From Microbulbifer sp. SAOS-129_SWC (GTDB lineage: Bacteria; Pseudomonadota; Gammaproteobacteria; Pseudomonadales; Cellvibrionaceae), in contig NZ_CP155567.1 of assembly GCF_039696035.1 (NCBI RefSeq), positions 1,855,001-1,919,000 on the forward strand: DNA of 64,000 nucleotides. Reading direction: 5' to 3'. A model generated the notes under the pieces. It saw nothing but the letters and a program-made list of their open reading frames with translations, had not been told where the DNA came from and ran no database searches. Positions 28,292 to 41,861 of the stretch are shown here, one piece after another. Numbering within the stretch: the stretch's first letter is position 1; every line of letters starts with the position of its first letter. A program made the translations under genes and the position numbers.

Positions 28292-28368
28292 GGTGGCCGT
28301 AGCTCAGTTGGTAGAGCACAGGATTGTGGCTCCTGAGGTCGCGGGTTCGATCCCCGTCGGCCACCCCA
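28292..28368 (+). tRNA. tRNA-His (GTG), probable phage attachment site
   Basis: The extra 5' G (-1) typical of tRNA-His is encoded at 28292, the anticodon loop is ATTGTGG (GTG), and CCA is encoded. The phage integrase begins about 105 bp downstream, so the 3' half of this tRNA is the likely attB/attL core. The right attachment site is outside the window. Confidence 0.95.
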
Positions 28369-28400
28369 TATATTTCCTTGTTAAATCAAGGACTTAGAAA

Positions 28401-28472: not shown

Positions 28473-29507
28473 CTAACTTGAGGTTTCCCGTTTGGCCCTG
28501 TTCAGCGAGACCACACGGTCCGGTCTACGGTTGTAGCGTTCGGCCATCGAGCGGGTTTTGTGGCCGGTGAACTGTTGCACGTCACCGTCGAAATCTGACG
28601 CCGCTTTGATCTTCAGGTCGTGGAAGCGGAAGCGCTCCTGGAGGGCGCCGGCCTCGAGGGCGGCGCGTTGCTCGCGTTGCCACACGGCGTTGAATCCGGT
28701 GCGGGTGTAGCGGCGGCCGGTGCGGCTGCGCAGGATGTGGGTGGTCTGTATCTGCGCCTCGGTATTGGTGGCCAGGGCGCGCTCTACGGCGTCGTGCAGG
28801 GCGGGGCTCCACAGCTTCAACTGCTGCTTGCCGGTCTTGGCCTGGACGATCAGCAGGCCGTCTTCCTGGATGTCCTTGCGGGTGAGCGCCAGTACGTCCT
28901 GCTGGCGGGCGGCGCACAGGTAGGCGATCTCCATGGCGCACTGGTGCACCGCGTGGCCGCGCTCGCCGAGCCAGCGCCAGAATGCCTCATACTCCCAGTC
29001 TTCGACATAGCGACCGCCCGGTCCCTCCGGCAGTGGGCGCACGGCGGTGGTGGGGTCCTCGATGGTGACGAAGCCCCGCGCCTTGCCCCATTTCATCAGG
29101 ATACCGAGGAAGGTGCGCTCGCGGTTGGCGGCGGCTGGGTGCTTGTTGCCGCGGGCGTCCAGGTACAGCTGCACCAGCGGGCTGGTGATGGCATCCGGGG
29201 ACATCTCCCCGAACGACTCGCGGACCTGCTTGCTGTAGCGCTCGTAGTCCTGCTGGGTAGCGGGCTTCAGGTGCTTGGTGTACTGGGGGCTGGCGAAGTA
29301 GAGCTCGATCAGGTCGGCGACGGTGAAGGTCTTCTGCACCAGATCGGCGAGGTAGCGTTCGTAGGCGGCCCAGACCTCCGAATTGCTGGCGTCCGGCCCG
29401 GCGATATGCCGGGTGGGATCGCCCTTCTTGCGGACCCGGTAACCCCCTTTGTAGCGCGCCACGTGCGGTGGCATCCAGGCGTTTTCTGGTTTGCGTTGTC
29501 TGCCCAT
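28473..29507 (-). CDS. int: Phage tyrosine recombinase (integrase)
   Basis: 344 residues: an N-terminal arm-binding part, a core-binding domain with TFTVADLIELYFASPQY, and a catalytic domain with Arg in YLCAARQQDVL, the box FHDLKIKAASD (Lys at the usual second Arg, a variant common in phage integrases), and nucleophile Tyr in HKTRSMAERYNRR. It catalyses site-specific integration and excision, here probably at tRNA-His. It is the last gene of the leftward operon, and the small DUF4224 gene lies two genes upstream. Confidence 0.93.
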   Translation of the reverse strand: MGRQRKPENAWMPPHVARYKGGYRVRKKGDPTRHIAGPDASNSEVWAAYERYLADLVQKTFTVADLIELYFASPQYTKHLKPATQQDYERYSKQVRESFGEMSPDAITSPLVQLYLDARGNKHPAAANRERTFLGILMKWGKARGFVTIEDPTTAVRPLPEGPGGRYVEDWEYEAFWRWLGERGHAVHQCAMEIAYLCAARQQDVLALTRKDIQEDGLLIVQAKTGKQQLKLWSPALHDAVERALATNTEAQIQTTHILRSRTGRRYTRTGFNAVWQREQRAALEAGALQERFRFHDLKIKAASDFDGDVQQFTGHKTRSMAERYNRRPDRVVSLNRAKRETSS

Positions 29508-34160: not shown

Positions 34161-34675
34161 GCTGCTTTCTCCTCTTGCCCAACCGGCTTCAGATGCCGGT
34201 TCTGAATAAACACCTGCAGGTATTCCTCAGCCCGGTTCATATAGGCCTCTTGGTCCTGCTTCTTGTCCTGGTTGCTGTTGGGCAGGATCTCGGCGATCCA
34301 GCCCCAGTCGATGATGAATTTCTCGTTCACCTCGCCGCGTACTTTTTCCAGCGCCGGCTGTACGTCTTCGGCCAGGTCGTTGATGCGCTGGCCCTTGCCG
34401 ATGAAGAAGTGGTGCGCGGTGTCGATGTCGCCGCGCCAGTCCCGGATGATCACCACGACCATCACCAGCCAGTTGTGCTGCAGCCTGCGGATCAGGTGGT
34501 CGGCGTTGCCGAGGCTGGCGAGTGTGCGCATGGTGGGCAGGCTGGCGTCGATGCCGAGCTTTGCGGTGCCGTCGTCTTCTAGGCCGTTGCTCTCCATGGC
34601 GATCAGGCGCAGGCCGCGCATCAGGCTGTTGATGTGCCTGCCCTTTGGCTGCCACGCCCGTTTGTTCCTGCTCAT
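34157..34675 (-). CDS. Hypothetical phage protein
   Basis: 172 residues; the middle is helical with a hydrophobic stretch (NWLVMVVVIIRDWRGDIDTAHHFFIGKG) that may be buried rather than membrane-spanning. No family recognised. ATGA-type overlaps with both neighbours. Confidence 0.5.
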   Translation of the reverse strand: MSRNKRAWQPKGRHINSLMRGLRLIAMESNGLEDDGTAKLGIDASLPTMRTLASLGNADHLIRRLQHNWLVMVVVIIRDWRGDIDTAHHFFIGKGQRINDLAEDVQPALEKVRGEVNEKFIIDWGWIAEILPNSNQDKKQDQEAYMNRAEEYLQVFIQNRHLKPVGQEEKAA

Positions 34676-34821
34676 GCCATATGGCCCAGGTAGTAGCCGA
34701 GGCCGATGATGACAACGGCGTACATCAGGCCCGCGAGCGCGAGTGCGCGAAAGCTGGGTGCCGGTTCGTGTTGCCTGCGCTGGATTTCCTGCAGCCAGTC
34801 GAAGCCGTCGTTATTGTTCAT
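34672..34821 (-). CDS. Small membrane protein downstream of DGR reverse transcriptase
   Basis: 49 residues; I took ATG 34821, which overlaps the RT stop (34818-34820). One membrane helix is at residues 28-46 (ALAGLMYAVVIIGLGYYLG). The reading frame's long upstream extension is antisense-type shadow of the RT and was dropped. Function unknown; its coupling to the RT is notable. Confidence 0.5.
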   Translation of the reverse strand: MNNNDGFDWLQEIQRRQHEPAPSFRALALAGLMYAVVIIGLGYYLGHMA

Positions 34822-36179
34822 GCTGTGCCTCCGGTGGGTGTGGTGCGTTGTTGGCGGGTCGGCACGGTGATGGTTGTGCCTTCCAGGCGGTAATCGAAGG
34901 TGCGCTTCCTGGTGGCGCTGGGCAGCCAGGGAAATTGGTTGATCAGGCTGCGCTGCAGGCGGTTGCTGTCGGCGTGGCGAAGGTGGCCGGCGTAGCTGGC
35001 GGCGATGGATTGGATTGCGCGGAACTGCGCCGGGGTGGCCTGGAGCTTTCCGCCGGACAGGTGTTTGCTTCCCCATTCGGCGAGGGCGCTGCGCGCGTGG
35101 GCGACGACGCGGCGGCGCACCAGGGTGTGGCTGGGCCGCACGATGTAGCCGAGGAAGTCGATACCGTCGGCGAGTGGCCGCAGGCGGATATCCGCTTTGA
35201 GGCGCAGCTGCAGCGCCTGGGCGATAAAGGTTTCGATCTGCTGTTGCCAGGTGGCCAGCTGCTGGCGGTCGCGGTGCACCAGTACGAAGTCGTCGACGTA
35301 GCGCAGGTAGCGCTTGGCCTTGAGTGTGTGCTTGACGAATTGGTCGAGCCGGTCGAGGTAGACGTTGGCGAGAAACTGGGAGCTGAGGTTGCCGATCGGC
35401 AGGCCGCAGCCGGGGCGCGCGTTCTCGAGGCGCTTGTGTGGTGGCACCAGGGCGCGCTCTTGCGCGGTGCCGTGGTAGATCACGCCGGCCTGCAGGGGCG
35501 GGCGGCGCAGCAGAGCGTGGGTGGTGCGCATCACCTGGTCGGATACCGGCGCGCGCTGCAGCTTTTTCTTCAGAATCGCCCATAGGGTGGGGCGGTGAAT
35601 CGAGTTGAAGAAATTGTGGATGTCGAGCTGCAGGTACCGGCCGCCGCGCTGGCCGCTGTGCACCTGCCGGACGAACTGCTGCAGGCGCTGCACGGCGGCG
35701 TGGCTGCCTTTGCCTTTGCGGTTGGCGTAGCTGTCGAAAATGAATGCGGGTTCCCACAGCTTTTCTAGTTGCGGGACCAGCCAGTGGTGCACGACGCGGT
35801 CGGCGAAGTCGGGAGCGTGGATCTCGCGGGCCTTGGGGCGGGTGGCCACGAAGCAGGCGCTGCGGCCGGGCTGCCAGCTGCCGCTGTTGAGGCGGCGCTG
35901 CAGGTGAAGAAGGCCTTCGGCCCAGTGGGCGTCGAAGGCGAGTTGGTTTTGGCTGGGTTTCTTGCCGGCCCGGGCTGTGCGCCAGGCGTCGTGCAGTTCC
36001 CGCAGGGAGACTGCCTCTTCACCGTGATACTCACCGGCGCGAACCGCGCGAACACAGGCGTTGTTGTTGCGGTGGTTGTTGTTGACATTGCCGTTGTTGA
36101 AATTGACCACCCAAACAGCAGCGTTGCCGCGCTCTTTCGACCCTGTCGGACAGCCATCTTGGTAGTGCGACGTCGTCAT
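34818..36179 (-). CDS. DGR reverse transcriptase with template repeat in its 5' end
   Basis: 453 residues from ATG 36179. RT motifs: LQLDIHNFFNSIHR (residues 184-196), GLPIGNLSSQF (259-269), where IGxxxSQ is the mark of DGR enzymes, and YLRYVDDF (291-298). It copies the TR RNA with adenine-specific errors into cDNA that replaces the VRs. ATG 36179 overlaps the avd stop (ATGA) and has AGGGG upstream, so translation through the TR is likely; residues 19-49 are template-encoded (NAAVWVVNFNNG...). A later internal start, giving a non-coding TR, cannot be ruled out. Confidence 0.93.
   Translation of the reverse strand: MTTSHYQDGCPTGSKERGNAAVWVVNFNNGNVNNNHRNNNACVRAVRAGEYHGEEAVSLRELHDAWRTARAGKKPSQNQLAFDAHWAEGLLHLQRRLNSGSWQPGRSACFVATRPKAREIHAPDFADRVVHHWLVPQLEKLWEPAFIFDSYANRKGKGSHAAVQRLQQFVRQVHSGQRGGRYLQLDIHNFFNSIHRPTLWAILKKKLQRAPVSDQVMRTTHALLRRPPLQAGVIYHGTAQERALVPPHKRLENARPGCGLPIGNLSSQFLANVYLDRLDQFVKHTLKAKRYLRYVDDFVLVHRDRQQLATWQQQIETFIAQALQLRLKADIRLRPLADGIDFLGYIVRPSHTLVRRRVVAHARSALAEWGSKHLSGGKLQATPAQFRAIQSIAASYAGHLRHADSNRLQRSLINQFPWLPSATRKRTFDYRLEGTTITVPTRQQRTTPTGGTA
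36033..36125 (-). repeat. DGR template repeat (TR)
   Basis: 93 bp. On the coding strand it contains 23 adenines, 22 of them in 11 Asn (AAY) codons plus one in a His codon. The 3' 28 bases (36033-36060) have no coding-strand A, as expected for the initiation-of-homing region. Just outside, at 36032, TR and VR differ (coding G versus C), a likely IMH/IMH* boundary. The coordinate was set by the end of identity on each side. Confidence 0.93.
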
Positions 36180-36619
36180 CTTTTGGCCCCTGCATTGCTG
36201 CGAGAGGCGGCGCGGCCACTCAGTATCTGAGCGCGCTCCGGTTGGGCTTGGCCCTGCGGATTCTGGCTCTTGCGGTGAAGTTGACGCCTCCAGCCGCCGG
36301 CGCAGCGGCCGACTTCTTCGGCGAGGCGGATCAGCGATTCGAACTGCCTGAAGCTGCGGAAGGCGCGCAGCTGGCTGCCCAGCTGCAGGCTCAACTTCAG
36401 CTCATCGATAGCCCAGGTCAGTTCGGAAACCCAGTGCGGTTGACGACTGCGGTCCCGCCAGGCGCGGTGGCACAGGCGCAACACGGCCATGGCCTGGTTG
36501 CGCAGGTCGGTGCCGAGCGTGTACTTGTGGTAGCGCGGGAAGCCGCGAACGGCCTGCTCGATATCGATGAGCAGGCGTTCGGCTTTCTTGGCGATTTCTG
36601 GCAGTTGGCGAGTCGTCAT
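36176..36619 (-). CDS. avd: DGR accessory variability determinant Avd
   Basis: 147 residues (ATG 36619), basic and four-helix-bundle-like: IAKKAERLLIDIEQAVRGFPRYHKYTLGTDLRNQAMAVLRLCHRAWRD is the core of the Avd family. Avd forms a pentameric barrel that binds the RT and the TR RNA. Its stop overlaps the RT ATG. The start lies 23 bases past the VP1 stop with no strong Shine-Dalgarno; a TTG at 36628 is an alternative start. Confidence 0.88.
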   Translation of the reverse strand: MTTRQLPEIAKKAERLLIDIEQAVRGFPRYHKYTLGTDLRNQAMAVLRLCHRAWRDRSRQPHWVSELTWAIDELKLSLQLGSQLRAFRSFRQFESLIRLAEEVGRCAGGWRRQLHRKSQNPQGQAQPERAQILSGRAASRSNAGAKR

Positions 36620-36642
36620 GGCATTCAATCAAAAATCAAAAA

Positions 36643-37011
36643 TTACTGACCGGCGCGAACCGCGCGAACACAGGCGCTGTCGTAGCGGCGGTCGTCGGTG
36701 ACATAGCCGTAGCTGAAATCGACCACCCAAACAGCAGCGTCATTCCAGGCGCAGGGCGTACTGGTCCAGTACCAGTCGCTCTTGGTGTCGGGGAATTTTT
36801 CGGTGTCGATGGCCGGGTTGTAGCGGCTGGTGTCTATCAGCGATTCCAGTTCCTTGCGGGTCGGCATGCGCCAGCCCTCGCCGAGTTCGGCGATGGCCTG
36901 CTCGGCGGCTTCATAGGTAACGTCTTCGCCGTCGAGCAGCGTTTCGCTCCATTCGAGCTCTGTGCTCGCGGCTTCGGTGTTGGTTTCGGTGTTGGGCGTT
37001 TGCACTTCCAT
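36643..37011 (-). CDS. DGR variable protein 1 (DUF1566/FGE-like)
   Basis: 122 residues. After a Thr-rich N-terminus come the DUF1566 landmarks ELEWSETLLDG, GEGWRMPTRKELESLID and WYWTSTPCAWN, then the variable repeat (last 32 residues, ending ACVRAVRAGQ). Such C-lectin-like or formylglycine-enzyme-like folds display the variable residues as a binding face. No signal peptide or membrane segment. ATG 37011 follows GGAGG. The role as a displayed receptor-type protein is inferred. Confidence 0.85.
   Translation of the reverse strand: MEVQTPNTETNTEAASTELEWSETLLDGEDVTYEAAEQAIAELGEGWRMPTRKELESLIDTSRYNPAIDTEKFPDTKSDWYWTSTPCAWNDAAVWVVDFSYGYVTDDRRYDSACVRAVRAGQ
36649..36741 (-). repeat. DGR variable repeat 1 (VR1)
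   Basis: 93 bp aligned to the TR with no gap: 12 differences, all at TR adenines (coding-strand A to G 8, A to T 3, A to C 1). The other 81 positions are identical. It forms the 3' end of VP1, two codons before the stop. Confidence 0.93.
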
Positions 37012-37124
37012 GGTTTCCTCCGGTTAAAAATGGGCCCCTTACCGGCAGCCCGAGACGGTTACTTCTGACTGATGCGCCCAGGGCGCGGGAAAATTCGGGG
37101 CAGCTGCGCTGCAAAAATCAAAAA

Positions 37125-37553
37125 CTACTGACCGGCGCGAACCGCGCGAACACAGGCGTAGTCGCTGCGGCGGTAGTAGTCGACACCGCCGTAGCCGAAA
37201 CCGACCACCCAAACAGCAGCGTCATTCCAGGCACACGGCGTGCTGGTCCAGTAGGCGCGGCTGCGGGTGTCGGGGAATTTTTCGGTGTCGATGGCCGGCT
37301 CGTGGCGGCTGCGATCGACCAGGGTTGCGAGCTCGTCGACGGTGGGCAGGCGCCAGCCGTTGCCGAGTTTGGCTACCGCTTTCTCGGCTTCCTCGTGGGT
37401 GACGGTCTCGCCTTCCAGCAGGGTGTCGCTCCACTCCAGTTCGCCATTGGCGGCGGTGGGCAGTTGGTCGGCATCAAGGGCGACAGTGATGTCGCCGCCG
37501 TTGGTGTCGATGCTGATGGTTTTGCCGGGGATTTTTATGTTGAGGTTTTGCAT
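37125..37553 (-). CDS. DGR variable protein 2 (DUF1566/FGE-like)
   Basis: 142 residues from ATG 37553, which has GGAG six bases upstream; an ATG at 37583 is less likely. The N-terminal 40 residues (NLNIKIPGKTISIDTNGGD) are beta-rich and absent from VP1; the rest is paralogous (GELEWSDTLLEGE, GNGWRLPTVDELATLVD, YWTSTPCAWND, ending ACVRAVRAGQ). Leader sequences upstream of both genes are also similar, so VP1 and VP2 probably arose by tandem duplication. Confidence 0.85.
   Translation of the reverse strand: MQNLNIKIPGKTISIDTNGGDITVALDADQLPTAANGELEWSDTLLEGETVTHEEAEKAVAKLGNGWRLPTVDELATLVDRSRHEPAIDTEKFPDTRSRAYWTSTPCAWNDAAVWVVGFGYGGVDYYRRSDYACVRAVRAGQ
37131..37223 (-). repeat. DGR variable repeat 2 (VR2)
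   Basis: 93 bp aligned to the TR: 15 differences, all at TR adenines (A to G 11, A to T 4). It differs from VR1 in many of the same codons, so the two copies diversified independently. A short GCAGC-GCA-GCTGC hairpin lies just past the VR2 stop on the coding strand. Confidence 0.93.
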
Positions 37554-37631
37554 TGGTGGCTCCGGGTTAATGTTCGGCCCCATACCGGCGGACCTGGTTG
37601 TTTGGTTAGTGCGCCTATGACGCGAATGAAA

Positions 37632-38336
37632 TTAAGCGGCCTTTGCGGGCTCTATTGGCGGCACGCCCTTGCGCAGCATCTCGGTCACGGAGGCCGCGAG
37701 CTCAGTGGGTGCCAGGTTAGTGTTCGTTGCTGGTGGTTCGGGCAATAGCTTTGCCCCTTCGGGGAACAGCTCCCGCATTTGCTTGGCGGTGCGGCAAGAG
37801 TGCAGAACTGTCCACGTCTGGGAGTAGAAAGTATCGATGGCGCCAAGCAAGTTTTTGATGCGGATCTGAAGTGCTTCAATGTCGGCTATTAGCGCCGGGT
37901 CGTCGACCATATCGCTGCCGGTCATGCCCGGAAGGGCTTTGTCGGCGGTGAGCTTCAGGCGCAGATTGTGGTCGTATTTCTGCATCACCCAGTTGAACAG
38001 TTTGGCCTTTACCTGACTGGTGATCTGCTCGTGGAGTGTCTCGGACTGTTGGCGGTGCATGGGGATCAGGAAGATCGTTTGTGGGCGATCTTTACCTTGC
38101 TTGCGCGGTGACTCCTGAATGGTTCTTGTCGCCATACCGATCTGGATCAGGTTGGCCCATTTTGTGGCGGGTATACCTGAGGCGGCACGGAGCTTCTGCT
38201 CGTACTGCTTCCAGAATTCCTTGTTGATGCGTTTGGCATCTTTGTCGATGGCATCGACCTCTGCGGCGACAGCCTTGGCGGTTAGCCGCTGTGCGATGTC
38301 TGCGCGCATTTCTTTGGTGATCGGAAATGATTTCAT
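37632..38336 (-). CDS. Hypothetical phage protein
   Basis: 234 residues, largely helical, basic N-terminal half (ITKEMRADIAQRLTAKAVAAEVDAIDKD). I see some resemblance to the Nmad5 nucleotide-modification-associated family, but it is too weak to call. It is upstream of the DGR in the same operon. Confidence 0.5.
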   Translation of the reverse strand: MKSFPITKEMRADIAQRLTAKAVAAEVDAIDKDAKRINKEFWKQYEQKLRAASGIPATKWANLIQIGMATRTIQESPRKQGKDRPQTIFLIPMHRQQSETLHEQITSQVKAKLFNWVMQKYDHNLRLKLTADKALPGMTGSDMVDDPALIADIEALQIRIKNLLGAIDTFYSQTWTVLHSCRTAKQMRELFPEGAKLLPEPPATNTNLAPTELAASVTEMLRKGVPPIEPAKAA

Positions 38337-38369
38337 GTTTCTGGTCCCATCCGTTGTTGTTGTGAGTGT

Positions 38370-38660
38370 TCAGCTGGCGCTGGCCGTGCCTGCGGCTTCA
38401 CGGTCCAGCAAGTCCTGCATCCACACCAGGCCCTTGGCGGTGACCAGGGAGGTGGGGTGCTGGATGCAGACTGGGCCGCGGTGGTAGGCGGTGAGCTTGG
38501 GGTGCAGCAGGCCCTGCTCGGTGGCGGCCTTGGTGGGCGCGTTGCGCATGGCGCCGGTGCTGTGCAGCCAGCCGGCGGTGCGCAGCCGGGCGAGCAGGGT
38601 ATTTTTGCCGATGCCCAGATGTCGGGCGGCCTGGGTGAGGGTGAGTTTGGTCTCGCTCAT
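38370..38660 (-). CDS. KilA-C-domain antirepressor-like protein
   Basis: 96 residues. The pattern LTQAARHLGIGKNTLLARLRTAGWLHSTGAMRNAPTKAATEQGLL with PTSLVTAKGLVWMQDLL is that of the phage antirepressor KilAC C-terminal domain, here without an N-terminal Bro/AntA domain. Some such proteins modulate phage repressors or replication. ATG 38660 overlaps the stop of the small gene upstream. Confidence 0.75.
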   Translation of the reverse strand: MSETKLTLTQAARHLGIGKNTLLARLRTAGWLHSTGAMRNAPTKAATEQGLLHPKLTAYHRGPVCIQHPTSLVTAKGLVWMQDLLDREAAGTASAS

Positions 38661-38818
38661 TGGGCCTGGTCCTCTGCTGGTGGTGGTTCGGCGTGGCCGT
38701 ACTGCTGCTCGGTGAGCTCGGCGACTTGTTCGCGCAGGTTGTTAATCTGCAGCTGCTGGGCGGCGACCTTGTTGGTGAGGTCTTGGACCAGCTCCAGCAG
38801 CTGCGTGAATTCGTTCAC
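38657..38818 (-). CDS. Small coiled-coil phage protein
   Basis: A 53-residue reading frame I translated by hand: GTG 38818, VNEFTQLLELVQDLTNKVAA then a leucine-heptad stretch (LQINNLREQVAELTEQQ). It fills the gap between the DUF6378 and KilAC genes with an ATGA overlap, so it is very likely translated. Function unknown. Confidence 0.55.
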   Translation of the reverse strand: MNEFTQLLELVQDLTNKVAAQQLQINNLREQVAELTEQQYGHAEPPPAEDQAQ

Positions 38819-38820
38819 GG

Positions 38821-39171
38821 TTATCCCCGTGCCCCTGCGGCGGCTTCCCCGGCGAGGCCGAAGTAGGCGGCGCCGTCTTCGTAGTCGTCGGCGACGAACT
38901 TGCCCTGGCTGGCGCGGGCCTGCTTGAGCAGCACCATGAACATCCAGCCTTCTTCCTCGGTGAGGTCTTTGCCGTAGAGGGCGTTGAAGGCGGCCACGGT
39001 CTTGGCCATGGAGCGCTCGCCATCGGGGGCGTCTCGCAGGCTGGCGCGGTCGCGCATGTGCTGGGCGCCGGCCTCTAGGAAGGCGGGTGCGCTGTAGTCG
39101 GGTGAGGGCCTGCCCTTGGTCTTGGGCGGGTTTATGGGTTGTGGCCCTGTCGGTTGGTGTCCGTCGGTCAC
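38821..39171 (-). CDS. DUF6378-like phage protein
   Basis: 116 residues from GTG 39171 (GTGA overlap with the upstream stop). The segment RDRASLRDAPDGERSMAKTVAAFNALYGKDLTEEEGWMFMVLLKQARASQGKFVADDYEDGAAYFGLAGEA matches DUF6378 proteins, frequent in phage early operons; function unknown. Confidence 0.7.
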   Translation of the reverse strand: MTDGHQPTGPQPINPPKTKGRPSPDYSAPAFLEAGAQHMRDRASLRDAPDGERSMAKTVAAFNALYGKDLTEEEGWMFMVLLKQARASQGKFVADDYEDGAAYFGLAGEAAAGARG

Positions 39172-39491
39172 GCTGCTGCCTCCGTCCGTTCGTTCGTTTT
39201 CAGATGCGCCCAGCGCTGGCACAGCGCTTCGAATTCCTCATTGCCGTTCGGCACCAGGCGATGCGGTTCGGCGCCGTGGTAGCGCAGCTCGATCGTGTTC
39301 ATGGCGTGGTGGAAGTTGTCGCTGTCCAGTCGGCACAGGTCGGCCACCGGTACGGCGAAGTCGTAGCTGTTCCAGGCGCTGAGCAGGACCAGGGCGGCGA
39401 TCTCGCTGGCGCCGGTGTTACCGCGCTCGAGCTTCAGCAGGGCGAGGATGCTGCGCTGGTACTGGGTGAGGGTGACGGCGTTCATGCTCAT
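39168..39491 (-). CDS. DUF7673-like phage protein
   Basis: 107 residues with ALVLLSAWNSYDFAVPVADLCRLDSDNFHHAMNTIELRYHG, the pattern of DUF7673 proteins found beside DUF6378 in many phages. No function is known. Confidence 0.6.
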   Translation of the reverse strand: MSMNAVTLTQYQRSILALLKLERGNTGASEIAALVLLSAWNSYDFAVPVADLCRLDSDNFHHAMNTIELRYHGAEPHRLVPNGNEEFEALCQRWAHLKTNERTEAAA

Positions 39492-39670
39492 GCGGCGTGT
39501 CCTCCGAAGGGCGGCCAGTCATCGGGGCCGGGGTTGTGTGGCTTGCGCTTGGGCTCTGCCAGGCGCAGGCGGCGGCCGCTGTGGGTGACCACGGCGAGGC
39601 GGCCGGTGCGGCGTTCGATCTCGCGCAGGACCTGCGCGGTGGTGACGGTGGGGTGCACGTAGACGGTCAT
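39488..39670 (-). CDS. Hypothetical small phage protein
   Basis: 60 residues, basic, ending PDDWPPFGGHAA. The compact spacing (four-base overlaps with both neighbours) supports translation. Family not recognised. Confidence 0.5.
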   Translation of the reverse strand: MTVYVHPTVTTAQVLREIERRTGRLAVVTHSGRRLRLAEPKRKPHNPGPDDWPPFGGHAA

Positions 39671-40005
39671 ACCTGGTACTCCCGGTTGGGGCGGATGCGG
39701 ATTTCCTTTGCGGGCCGGCGCGGGATGCGGCTGCGCGCCGGGGTGAGGGCGTCTGGGCTGATGCTGCCGAGCAGGGTGACCAGCAGGCAGAACTGAATCA
39801 GGCCGAACTTGATGGCCTTGGCGACGGCGTCGGTACTGTTACGGGCGTGCAATTTAAAGAAGCACTCGGCCAGCAGGTTGGTGACATTGGCCACGGAGCA
39901 GGCCATGGCAGCGGCCGTCTCGGCGTTGCTGAGGCCCCGGGCGCGGTGCGCGAGGGCCTCGGCCTGGCGTGGGGCCAGTGGTCTGAAGTTGGTGGCGGTG
40001 TGCAT
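39667..40005 (-). CDS. LuxR-type HTH phage regulator, first gene of leftward operon
   Basis: 112 residues. The HTH FRPLAPRQAEALAHRARGLSNAETAAAMACSVANVTNLLAECFFKLHARNSTDAVAKAIKFGLI is a GerE/LuxR-type domain with no sensor domain. A hydrophobic stretch follows. As the first gene after the pL-like promoter it may be an early transcription activator or an anti-repressor-like regulator; this is inferred from position. Confidence 0.75.
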   Translation of the reverse strand: MHTATNFRPLAPRQAEALAHRARGLSNAETAAAMACSVANVTNLLAECFFKLHARNSTDAVAKAIKFGLIQFCLLVTLLGSISPDALTPARSRIPRRPAKEIRIRPNREYQV

Positions 40006-40038
40006 TTGGTCGCCCTGGTTATTGGTTGTTGGGCGTAC

Positions 40039-40079
40039 ATTAGTAAAACGCTGATTTACTTGTCAACAGTAAAATACTG
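40039..40079 (-). promoter_or_regulatory. Leftward early promoter (pL-like) with two repressor operators
   Basis: On the minus strand TTGACA (40066-40061) and ACTAAT (40044-40039) are spaced by 16 bases. Two operator-like sites flank them: TAGTAAAACGCTG at 40042-40054 over the -10 side, and the perfect CAGTA-AAA-TACTG at 40067-40079 next to the -35. Related sites occur at the repressor-gene promoter region, so the phage repressor probably shuts this operon, including the DGR. Confidence 0.7.
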
Positions 40080-40193
40080 ATTTTTACTATTTGGTTGTTT
40101 TTTGAACTGATTTATTCGTGCAGATTAGTATTTTCGTGCTTGCAGAGCGCTGTTATTCTCTATGTGACAATCATCACAAAAGGGATAATAGAA

Positions 40194-40799
40194 ATGATCC
40201 GACTTGTCACTTTGGGGGTTGCAATATTGGCTTTTGCTGGGTGCGCAAGCATGAATGCGCCCGATCCTGCCATTCCAGATAATGTGACGCTGACTCCCCC
40301 GGCGGCATATAACCAGCAGTTCATTGATACGGTTCGATTTGAGGAGCCGATAGAGGTGCACCGTTCGCCCGCGCGGTGTGTTGCAGAGTATGTGAACAAC
40401 CGGGCCGTTACCTTGAGTGATTCCAGTAGCTCTTTTGTGGGCGCCTTCACTGGGAATTACTATCAGGTCAACAACTCTACTGAGTCGGCGGGCGGACAGG
40501 TGTTAAAGTATTCGGACGAAAAAGAAGTTGTCGCCCAGGGGCGGGAGACATACACGACAACTCTGCTTGGTGTACCAATTGGCAACGCAGTGGAGTTCAA
40601 GTTGTTGGTGGAGCTTGGTGAGGGAGTTGTGCGGCTTAAATTCTCGGATGTTCAGCATGCTCAGCTTGATACCGGTGGTGCCGCTAATAGCGGGTTCGGC
40701 CCAGTGGGAGCCTGGAGAGGCGCTGGCCCGGTAGATGCATATCACGTGATGGAAGGTGTGGCCAACAAGGTTATGGGCTGCATAGGCGGTGCCGATTGA
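40194..40799 (+). CDS. Prophage-encoded lipoprotein (candidate lysogenic conversion gene)
   Basis: 201 residues. The signal is MIRLVTLGVAILAFAGC with lipobox Cys at 17, then a beta-rich mature part with no motif I know. ATG 40194 follows AAAAGGGA. It is a plus-strand gene between pL and the convergent repressor gene, out of line with both operons, as morons are. It could alter the lysogen's surface or block superinfection, but this is inference. AT-rich leader (40006-40193). Confidence 0.75.
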   Translation: MIRLVTLGVAILAFAGCASMNAPDPAIPDNVTLTPPAAYNQQFIDTVRFEEPIEVHRSPARCVAEYVNNRAVTLSDSSSSFVGAFTGNYYQVNNSTESAGGQVLKYSDEKEVVAQGRETYTTTLLGVPIGNAVEFKLLVELGEGVVRLKFSDVQHAQLDTGGAANSGFGPVGAWRGAGPVDAYHVMEGVANKVMGCIGGAD

Positions 40800-40821
40800 G
40801 GCCTTCGCTGCTTAGTAGAAA

Positions 40822-40848
40822 GCCCGCCACTGCGGGCTTTTTTTTTAG
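40822..40848. terminator. Bidirectional-type terminator between lipoprotein and repressor genes
   Basis: A GC-rich stem AGCCCGC/GCGGGCT is followed by a run of nine T. It ends the lipoprotein transcript and is also just past the convergent repressor stop. Confidence 0.8.
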
Positions 40849-41526
40849 CTATTCTGGATGAAAGGCCCCAATTACAACGCCGCAGATGCATGTATCGAGA
40901 TTTGAAATATCAGCTGTTGGGTAGTTGTGGTTGATCGAGCGCAGGAAGGTCTGTCCTAAGTCTTTGGCTAAAGTTTTGAATGTGGCTGTCCCATCGACTG
41001 TGGCGACAACCCTGCAGTCTGAAGTGGGCTTCTTCTCTGGGTCCACGTAAATGATAGTGCCAGGTGGGTAGCTCTTGTGGCCTGGATAGGGGCTTACCAT
41101 TGAGTCTCCTGATACCGTGAGAGCAAATGCCTTGTTGCTGTGTGAAACTGGACATATAAGCCAGTCTAGCGCCTCCTTGGGCTCAAATTTCTCCATCGCC
41201 CCACAGTATGTACCAACGGTGTCCCAACTCAGCAACGGAATGCGGCCGGTAATTCGGGGATTTTGGCTTGCGCCGGAATTATATTCGGTTGCTTTTTCAC
41301 CAATGCCGGGAGCCCTGTTCGTTTGTGGGTAATCCATCCATCCGCGCGGAAGCTGTAGAGCTTCCTCGATCTTTCTGGCGGTCCGACTTCCAAAGCTCCC
41401 ATGTCCCGAACACAGCTGATTGATGTAGTTGTTGTCCGGGTATCCCAACTTTTCGGAAATATCCGTCCTACCGTACATGTCGGCCAATAGGTTGATGTTC
41501 GCGCGGCGAATGTCTTTTATATCCAT
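40849..41526 (-). CDS. C1-like repressor with S24/LexA-type self-cleavage domain
   Basis: 225 residues. The N-terminal HTH (INLLADMYGRTDISEKLGYPDNNYINQLCSG) is followed by a C-terminal S24 domain with the catalytic Ser in VSGDSMVSP and Lys in TATFKTL. A Cys-Gly pair (GTYCGAME) sits where Ala-Gly or Cys-Gly is cut in LexA/UmuD-type proteins. It keeps the prophage silent and would be inactivated by RecA during DNA damage. Confidence 0.9.
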   Translation of the reverse strand: MDIKDIRRANINLLADMYGRTDISEKLGYPDNNYINQLCSGHGSFGSRTARKIEEALQLPRGWMDYPQTNRAPGIGEKATEYNSGASQNPRITGRIPLLSWDTVGTYCGAMEKFEPKEALDWLICPVSHSNKAFALTVSGDSMVSPYPGHKSYPPGTIIYVDPEKKPTSDCRVVATVDGTATFKTLAKDLGQTFLRSINHNYPTADISNLDTCICGVVIGAFHPE

Positions 41527-41560
41527 TTGCGAATCATACCGTTAGTAATTAGCTATCGAG

Positions 41561-41605
41561 AATCAGCAAAATACTGTTGACTGAAAATCAGCAATTCACT
41601 ATTGT
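41561..41605 (+). promoter_or_regulatory. Rightward promoter (pR-like) with repressor operators
   Basis: TTGACT (41577-41582), 17-base spacer, TATTGT (41600-41605). Operator-like CAGCAAAATACTG lies at 41564-41576 and a weaker match CAGCAATTCACTA at 41589-41601, between the divergent repressor and cro-like genes. The same 13-base motif flanks the leftward promoter. Confidence 0.7.
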
Positions 41606-41630
41606 TTCGGGCTCAGGAGGATAACGAACC

Positions 41631-41861
41631 ATGACACCGAGACAGTTCTATTACTCACATTCCAAGGAAGAAGTAGAGGCGTTGGCTAAGAGCGCCGGTA
41701 CCAACTTCGCCAACTTCAAGCAAATTGCAGTTGCCCGCGGGTCTGTGGGTCGGAAATTGGCTGAGCGTCTTGCTCGAGCTTCCGATGGGGTGATTTCGGA
41801 GCTCGAGGCCTTGTACCCGGAGCGGTACGAAGAGCTTCCAGAAGAGAAACAGGCAAGCTGA
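41631..41861 (+). CDS. Cro-like small regulator (putative)
   Basis: 76 residues, TPRQFYYSHSKEEVEALAKSAGTNFANFKQIAVARGSVGRKLAERLARASDGVISELEALYPERY. The helical pattern and position, divergent from the repressor just after pR, fit a Cro-type HTH protein. A GGAGG box is close to ATG 41631. Confidence 0.65.
   Translation: MTPRQFYYSHSKEEVEALAKSAGTNFANFKQIAVARGSVGRKLAERLARASDGVISELEALYPERYEELPEEKQAS

Follow-up and report, generated by a model that had tools for sequence, protein, structure and literature searches.

The stretch of DNA analyzed here (64,000 nt, hereafter the window) comes from the forward strand of the 4.63-Mb chromosome of Microbulbifer sp. SAOS-129_SWC (GCF_039696035.1, NZ_CP155567.1, positions 1,855,001–1,919,000) and contains a diversity-generating retroelement (DGR) in the leftward arm of a temperate phage. 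The cassette lies entirely on the minus strand and runs from target gene 2 (37583–37125) through target gene 1 (37011–36643) and avd (36619–36176) to the reverse transcriptase (RT) gene (36179–34818). We consider it probable that in this prophage DGR the template repeat (TR) lies in frame inside the RT open reading frame (ORF), behind a covarying RNA fold, and that mutated cDNA likely rewrites two genes carrying variable repeats (VRs). While the DGR as such is ordinary, an RT-coding template combined with a covarying RNA that spans the avd/RT boundary 5′ of the TR is a new variant. The features of the cassette are as follows (IMH, initiation of mutagenic homing; SD, Shine-Dalgarno).

34818–36179, minus strand: DGR reverse transcriptase ORF, 453 aa, ATG at 36179, core from residue 57 (RVT_1, PHROG 1423)
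36033–36125, minus strand: TR, 93 nt, equal to RT residues 19–49 and read in the VR frame, followed by GAGT (IMH*-like) (alignment)
36126–36268, minus strand: structured RNA, 143 nt, dual-coded with the 3′ end of avd and the RT leader (covariation, synonymous constraint)
36176–36619, minus strand: avd, ATG at 36619 (TTG at 36628 also possible), last ~30 codons under the RNA (PF22296, PHROG 3206)
36187–36190, minus strand: SD-like GGGG, 8–11 nt upstream of the RT ATG, with three of the four bases in predicted helix H4 (conservation)
36643–37011, minus strand: target gene 1, 122 aa, Lcl_C, with VR1 at the C-terminal end (PF07603, 4e-25)
36649–36741, minus strand: VR1, followed by CAGT (IMH-like) running into the stop codon (alignment)
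37125–37583, minus strand: target gene 2, 152 aa (142 aa from the ATG at 37553), Lcl_C, with VR2 C-terminal (PF07603, 5e-24)
37131–37223, minus strand: VR2, followed by CAGT running into the stop codon (alignment)

An earlier note on this locus, made from the sequence alone, had described a complete DGR with a DGR-type RT, Avd and two variable repeats, and profile searches together with alignment found all of these parts. The RT matched RVT_1 (4.6e-15) and the PHROG 1423 reverse transcriptase profile (1.2e-97), its translation contains YVDD as well as IGNLSSQ, which fits the (L/I/V)GxxxSQ motif defined for DGR RTs in PMC3521204, and its alignment with Brt of BPP-1 starts at residue 54, at 30% identity. 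The AlphaFold model is well formed from about residue 57, with a predicted local distance difference test (pLDDT) score > 85 over most of the core and < 50 for 46 of residues 1–53. Avd, an accessory protein that most DGRs have, matched bAvd (PF22296, 1.7e-10) and PHROG 3206 (2.9e-24), while its score against NF033474 (51.9 bits) was under the cut-off of 80.

The TR, VR1 and VR2 align over 93 columns without gaps, at the coordinates that the note had given from a hand alignment. On the coding strand the TR holds 23 adenines (Ts on the printed strand, the cassette being on the minus strand), and the program alignment reproduced the reported differences: 12 in VR1 (8 A>G, 3 A>T, 1 A>C) and 15 in VR2 (11 A>G, 4 A>T), 12/12 and 15/15 of them at TR adenines, with the other 70 TR positions identical in both repeats. 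The probability that differences fall only on adenines by chance is 3e-9 for VR1 and 6e-12 for VR2, and this adenine-only pattern led us to reject a chance repeat as the origin of the similarity. The two outcomes that the note had named as speaking against its claim, differences at non-adenine positions and a lack of RT or Avd HMM matches, did not occur. What it had missed altogether is that the TR is in frame inside the RT, that avd and RT meet in an ATGA junction, and that a structured RNA lies 5′ of the TR. Two pattern searches of the whole genome, one with part of the 5′ half and one with part of the 3′ half of the TR, gave no fourth TR/VR copy at ≤ 3 mismatches.

For comparison, 81 loci with a related RT were collected (22 on genome contigs, 59 on viral contigs), making 82 with the window; a TR was obtained for 80 of them, all with an avd match, and L019 and L031, which gave none, were left out. 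A tree of 50 RTs was drawn from the clade (30 of its 72 loci), the distant loci (6 of 8) and 14 named phages, which had been chosen out of 131 matching records and include 5 labelled ambiguous; in this tree the type seen in the window forms one branch (support 100/99). Genomes G014, G044 and G086 carry several RT copies each, with equally weak scores to the query, that are possibly group II introns.

Each VR ends one codon before the stop of its target gene, at the 3′ end of the gene. GAGT follows the TR in 72/72 loci and CAGT follows the VR in 148/149, the exceptional VR (in L036) having its CAGT 7 bases further on. The C of CAGT starts the codon preceding the stop in the target, and the RT frame continues past GAGT. 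GAGT at the TR and CAGT at the VRs likely form an IMH/IMH* pair that would make transfer one-way. Up to four VRs per locus were seen among the relatives, and extra target genes with VRs were noticed 3.5–6 kb from the TR in L005, L006, L009, L010, L026, L037 and others, as well as in genome G039 near C1:1410748.

The frame of the RT is open through the TR in 72 of the 80 loci and not open in 8. In the window, the RT ATG overlaps the avd stop codon as ATGA and 21 nt separate the end of the TR from the RT core. ATGA is found at the avd stop in 71 of the 80 loci. In a test anchored on the avd stop, this ATG shares the frame of the RT core in 71/71, despite 16 different spacings of 138 to 234 nt. 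L029, the 72nd open locus, has TGATG as the overlap of avd stop and RT ATG. Positions −11 to −8 before the RT start read GGGG in 63, GAGG in 8 and AGGG in 1 of the 72 loci. Where the avd codon overlapping this SD-like tract encodes Gly, it is GGG in 63/63 cases, whereas G is the third base in 43 of the 450 Gly codons elsewhere in avd (binomial about 1.6e-41 over 40 Gly representatives). The tract also moves with the start: in L029, L033, L034 and L077, where avd and RT meet about 33 nt further down, positions −11 to −8 still read GGGG.

The distance from TR to core is a multiple of 3, and the TR frame equals the VR frame, in 70/72 loci each. L064 and L067 use a different frame for the TR, which there encodes a Thr-rich peptide, but keep the leader and the RT in one frame; therefore, it is the read-through that is kept and not the peptide. 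The N-terminus could nevertheless be an annotation artefact of a stop-poor template, in an ordinary DGR where a non-ATG codon within or downstream of the TR is the real start of the RT. We regard this as unlikely, even if TRs are indeed poor in stops (the brt frame of BPP-1 is also open through the TR, with an annotated start after it), the TR peptide is unlike in L064 and L067, and the predicted N-terminus scores as poorly as described above. An ATG between the TR start and RT residue 57 is absent in 69/72 loci, while a GTG, TTG or ATG in the RT frame occurs late in the TR or ahead of residue 57 in 67/72, so that an RT start within the TR is conceivable in those loci. Against such a start stand the in-frame ATGA at all 16 spacings, the SD-like tract, which is conserved at the nucleotide level, and its displacement together with the junction. 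Moreover, the window offers only a GTG 15 nt into the TR as an alternative in-frame start there, and between TR position 18 and codon 30 of the core, inclusive, it has no ATG, GTG or TTG in frame.

The region between the TR and the 3′ end of avd was aligned (alignment A4, from the avd 3′ end to the TR start) for 41 of 47 representatives (< 90% identical) drawn from 66 distinct RTs. The consensus holds 26 pairs in five helices, which in the window are located as follows.

36266–36268 with 36230–36232, minus strand: RNA helix H1
36256–36260 with 36237–36241, minus strand: RNA helix H2
36210–36216 with 36126–36132, minus strand: RNA helix H3, abutting the TR
36204–36206 with 36188–36190, minus strand: RNA helix H4, which would pair the SD-like tract
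36161–36171 with 36145–36155, minus strand: RNA helix H5

Pairing is possible in 96.5% of the alignment cells and drops to 36–51% when the partners are slid by 1–3 columns, two-sided changes occur in 20 of the 26 pairs, and the covariation score (0.527) exceeds that of shuffled alignments (0.189 ± 0.011, 0/500 as high) as well as that of slid pairings (at most 0.123). H3 consists of seven pairs and reaches from inside avd to the base adjoining the TR. In agreement with the dual coding of this stretch, synonymous divergence (pS) in the last 30 avd codons is 0.01–0.26 vs. 0.27–0.59 further upstream, and of the five blocks of six codons, three (−30 to −25, −18 to −13 and −12 to −7) have a pS below the nonsynonymous divergence (pN). 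At E up to 1, none of the Rfam 15 families matched the window convincingly; two sub-threshold matches were taken as chance.

A covariance model of the fold (R1) matched the window and 69/69 of the clade relatives searched (69 of 71, L008 and L077 being left out), although 38 of the 69 are in its training alignment and the 31 outside it are often close to training members. Five distant loci that had not been used for training (L016, L017, L021, L023 and L024; E 7e-5 to 3e-14) were matched by R1 as well, and there the RNA ends between −5 and +9 nt relative to the TR start. Once these five were included in a second model (R2), weak matches appeared in L020, L022 and L025 (E 4e-5 to 2e-3), ending 1–9 nt before the TR. 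All eight distant loci thus have the RNA at the TR edge although their TR lies outside the RT ORF, three of them by these weak matches; in L017 and L024 the RNA abuts the TR and the RT core follows some 900 to 1150 nt beyond. The RNA in the distant loci ends at the TR start and not at the RT start, and therefore it follows the TR. When R1 was run on whole genomes, under stricter filters and with 30 candidates scored per genome, it hit 2 of 96, exactly the two with a close RT; the model also offers a means of finding TRs in such genomes without a known VR.

From these comparisons the 5′ RNA likely belongs to the template RNA. Were it instead a translational regulator of the RT that hides the SD tract and has no part in the template RNA, the start codon would be expected where it is, inside the fold, and most of the SD-like tract paired, as it is with an upstream CUC in 99% of the cells of H4. 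An RNA of this kind would not be expected to abut the TR in L017 and L024, so far from the RT core, nor to end within −5 to +9 nt of the TR start in 8/8 distant loci, and we find a purely regulatory role improbable, at about the same level as an RT start inside or after the TR.

Synonymous divergence along the RT gene (858 gene pairs, 70–95% identity) drops from ~0.4 in the leader to 0.03 at mid-TR, and the core has 0.31–0.65. Synonymous sites of the TR are nearly frozen, which points to a nucleic-acid constraint and speaks against the TR-encoded peptide being a functional part of the RT, e.g., a mimic of the target tip. The shared TR and VR frame and a weak Lcl_C match of RT residues 16–47 (E 0.005) would fit such a peptide, but it is replaced by an unrelated Thr-rich one in L064 and L067 and is mostly predicted with pLDDT < 50, and we give this explanation hardly any credence. 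On the 3′ side of the TR no synonymous dip was found within 50 codons (0.36–0.51, the lowest value, 0.36, being inside the range of the core). A conserved fold 3′ of the TR inside the RT core was detectable neither by pS nor by an alignment-fold test, which gave z-scores of −2.7 and −2.3 over the leader/TR windows (1–45 and 16–60) and of −1.2 to 0.4, or undefined, over the core.

BPP-1 (mtd/avd/TR/brt) shares with the element in the window the RT, Avd, TR and VR, the adenine-specific differences and, according to its record, phage attachment at the 3′ end of tRNA-His. In BPP-1 the TR and brt are separated by 144 nt that carry the Rfam family Phage_DGR (RF03022, L094 3834–3966) 3′ of the TR, whereas in the window 21 nt lie between TR and core, the TR is part of the RT ORF, the RNA precedes it on the 5′ side, and the targets are small Lcl_C proteins in place of a tail protein; no Rfam match to the RF03022 spacer RNA was obtained 3′ of the TR in the window. 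In an Rfam scan of 14 sources, RF03022 was found 3′ of the TR in BPP-1 and RT-15 (RF03018) 5′ of the TR in five phages (Burkholderia phage Magia, Pseudomonas phages LPPA56, Cruim01 and Haboob, and Shewanella phage QDWS), while the eight distant loci had none; 11 further sources had no DGR RNA of Rfam at gathering score.

The RT-15 phages resemble the window in that a structured RNA, starting in the avd 3′ end, lies directly 5′ of the TR, and in that the TR is 9–32 nt from the RT core. By eye, the two RNAs share one layout: a 5′ hairpin that has 3 outer pairs and two internal loops (5 and 4 nt), then a linker comparable in length, and finally a long-range helix closing just before the TR. They differ in that the window RNA has fewer inner hairpins and that the RT frames of the RT-15 phages read the TR as a Thr-rich peptide. 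The RT-15 model had no match in the window at E up to 1. The two RNAs are likely homologous, judging by a plan that looks the same by eye, although their models do not cross-match.

Among the 14 named phages the TR lies inside the annotated RT coding sequence in 4, partly inside in 1, and before the RT in 9. In Vibrio phage VP58.5 (L123) and Pseudoalteromonas phage ACA1 (L119), the annotated RT begins at an ATG that overlaps the avd stop as ATGA, and it includes the TR, which encodes an Asn-rich peptide in that frame. These two form a separate branch of the RT tree, with 135–154 nt, also within the ORF, between TR and RT core, and represent a second, separate case. In 2012, a TR overlapping the annotated RT ORF was recorded for DiGReF group 3 (PMC3521204), an architecture that the element in the window shares (TR at RT residues 19–49); in the DiGReF section the overlap is an annotation class, and, there being no strict order, the spatial arrangement was held to be irrelevant. 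That section contains no analysis of reading frame, start codon, RNA or conservation. The sections of the literature searched on TR position and RNA structure, and Rfam 15, yielded no translated TR or 5′ RNA of this kind. The DGR template has been described in a review as a non-coding RNA (PMC8867640), and docking of the enzyme takes place on the 3′ side of the template in the best-studied system (PMC12875486). With its template in a reading frame and its conserved RNA on the 5′ side, the type found in the window could serve as a comparative system for what RT-Avd recognizes in DGRs outside the BPP-1 type, and for how one transcript is divided between translation and copying.

In a working model, target 2, target 1, avd and RT are likely transcribed together as a single leftward RNA, as suggested by the gene order. 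RT translation is predicted to begin at the ATG in the avd stop, via the SD-like G-tract, and ribosomes would cross the leader and the TR, producing an N-terminal tail that is predicted to be disordered. The RNA 5′ of the TR would likely act as the RT-Avd docking module of the template RNA, its closing helix H3 would mark the 5′ end of copying, and cDNA with errors at adenines would likely replace VR1 or VR2 by homology, with the GAGT/CAGT boundary likely keeping the transfer one-way. One stretch of DNA is thus likely to be protein code, RNA scaffold and mutation template at once. Folding and translation of this stretch would be mutually exclusive, each molecule serving as message or as template at a time, although both the function of the RNA and a switch between ribosome and template are things we infer. 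A bolder version, which we put forward tentatively and would not favor at present, is that the RT messenger is its own mutation template and that one fold makes the choice: folded, it would hide the RT start and present the TR to RT-Avd; opened by the ribosome finishing avd, it would be the RT message. If true, mutagenesis in this clade would be set by translation, and the docking RNA would have shifted to the 5′ flank of the TR, where two overlapping genes encode it.

Several points weigh against a template read through as part of the RT behind a functional fold, besides the alternative start codons mentioned above. An RT frame open through the TR is not special, as BPP-1 has one too. H4 has only three pairs, which are nearly invariant with almost no two-sided change, so that the pairing of the SD-like tract is only predicted. 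On the 3′ side, the alignment-fold test (30 sequences, 60 synonymous-codon shuffles) is weak, with consensus energies near zero. No match was found between R1 or R2 and the RT-15 phage loci, and docking of RT-Avd at the 5′ side is proposed from the position of RT-15 and from the lack of a detectable 3′ RNA. Finally, a BPP-1-like hairpin or cruciform was looked for after the VRs: there was no fold after VR1, and after VR2 none better than shuffles.

Whether the element still diversifies its targets was approached by comparing corresponding VRs of related elements. Differences fell at TR adenines in 14/15 cases for L041/L082, whose TRs are not identical, and in 15/16 and 16/16 for two VRs of L065/L068 (45/47 in total; L040 was left out because its flank is cut), while the 300-nt flanks of the three compared VRs had 22, 13 and 28 differences. 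In six pairs of loci the RTs were identical and so were the VRs; these are probably the same genomes in two collections and are uninformative on activity. Clade-wide (148 VRs, 72 loci), differences from the TR amounted to 114/12588 at non-adenine vs. 2141/3487 at adenine positions, the former rate being biased low, since the finder needs runs of at least 35 nt without non-adenine mismatch and VRs with > 8 such mismatches were dropped. The VR differences between related elements support activity in the clade rather than in this strain. The description 'active or recently active' in the earlier note has indirect support, from these comparisons and from the absence of non-adenine changes in both VRs of the window, and the DGR of the window may be active. 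The element might also be a dead relic whose targets are no longer diversified, in keeping with the rarity of a close RT in the genus (1 of 47 other genomes); with RT motifs, Avd, RNA helices and ORFs intact and neither VR showing a non-adenine change, we think this very unlikely.

The targets, whose Lcl_C domain is of the C-type lectin fold, find their best structural and profile match in the C-terminal domain of Legionella Lcl (8q4e). With the model of target 2 (codons 12–152, pLDDT 88), Foldseek ranked this domain first (E 8e-5) and C-type lectins after it (E 4e-3 and weaker). They differ from Lcl in being short free-standing proteins. No signal sequence was evident by eye in either target, and a search with the target protein gave no match in the phage collection. 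Both genes lie outside the phage structural module.

The carrier prophage was delimited by 48-bp exact end repeats, the second copy of which lies beyond the window (window-equivalent 68753–68800); it occupies ~40.4 kb in tRNA-His, from 28324 to window-equivalent 68800. Its mapped features are as follows.

28324–28371, plus strand: attL, at the 3′ end of tRNA-His (28293–28368) (48-bp exact repeat)
28473–29507, minus strand: prophage integrase, beside tRNA-His (PHROG 1, 6e-41)
40849–41526: S24-type repressor (profile search)

A plasmid origin of the cassette was rejected, as a search in 'near' mode only gave no near match in the plasmid collection. No sigma-70-like promoter was found in the cassette; the sole match in 34600–41700 is at 41577 on the opposite strand, vs. 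1.7 expected by chance. Past the repressor, the plus strand encodes primase, holin, terminase, portal, head protease and tape measure proteins (ten ORFs scanned), with an ORF of 1911 aa after the tape measure gene. The gene neighboring the cassette (37632–38336) matches Nmad5 (nucleotide modification associated domain) and PHROG 15487, which is labelled DNA polymerase.

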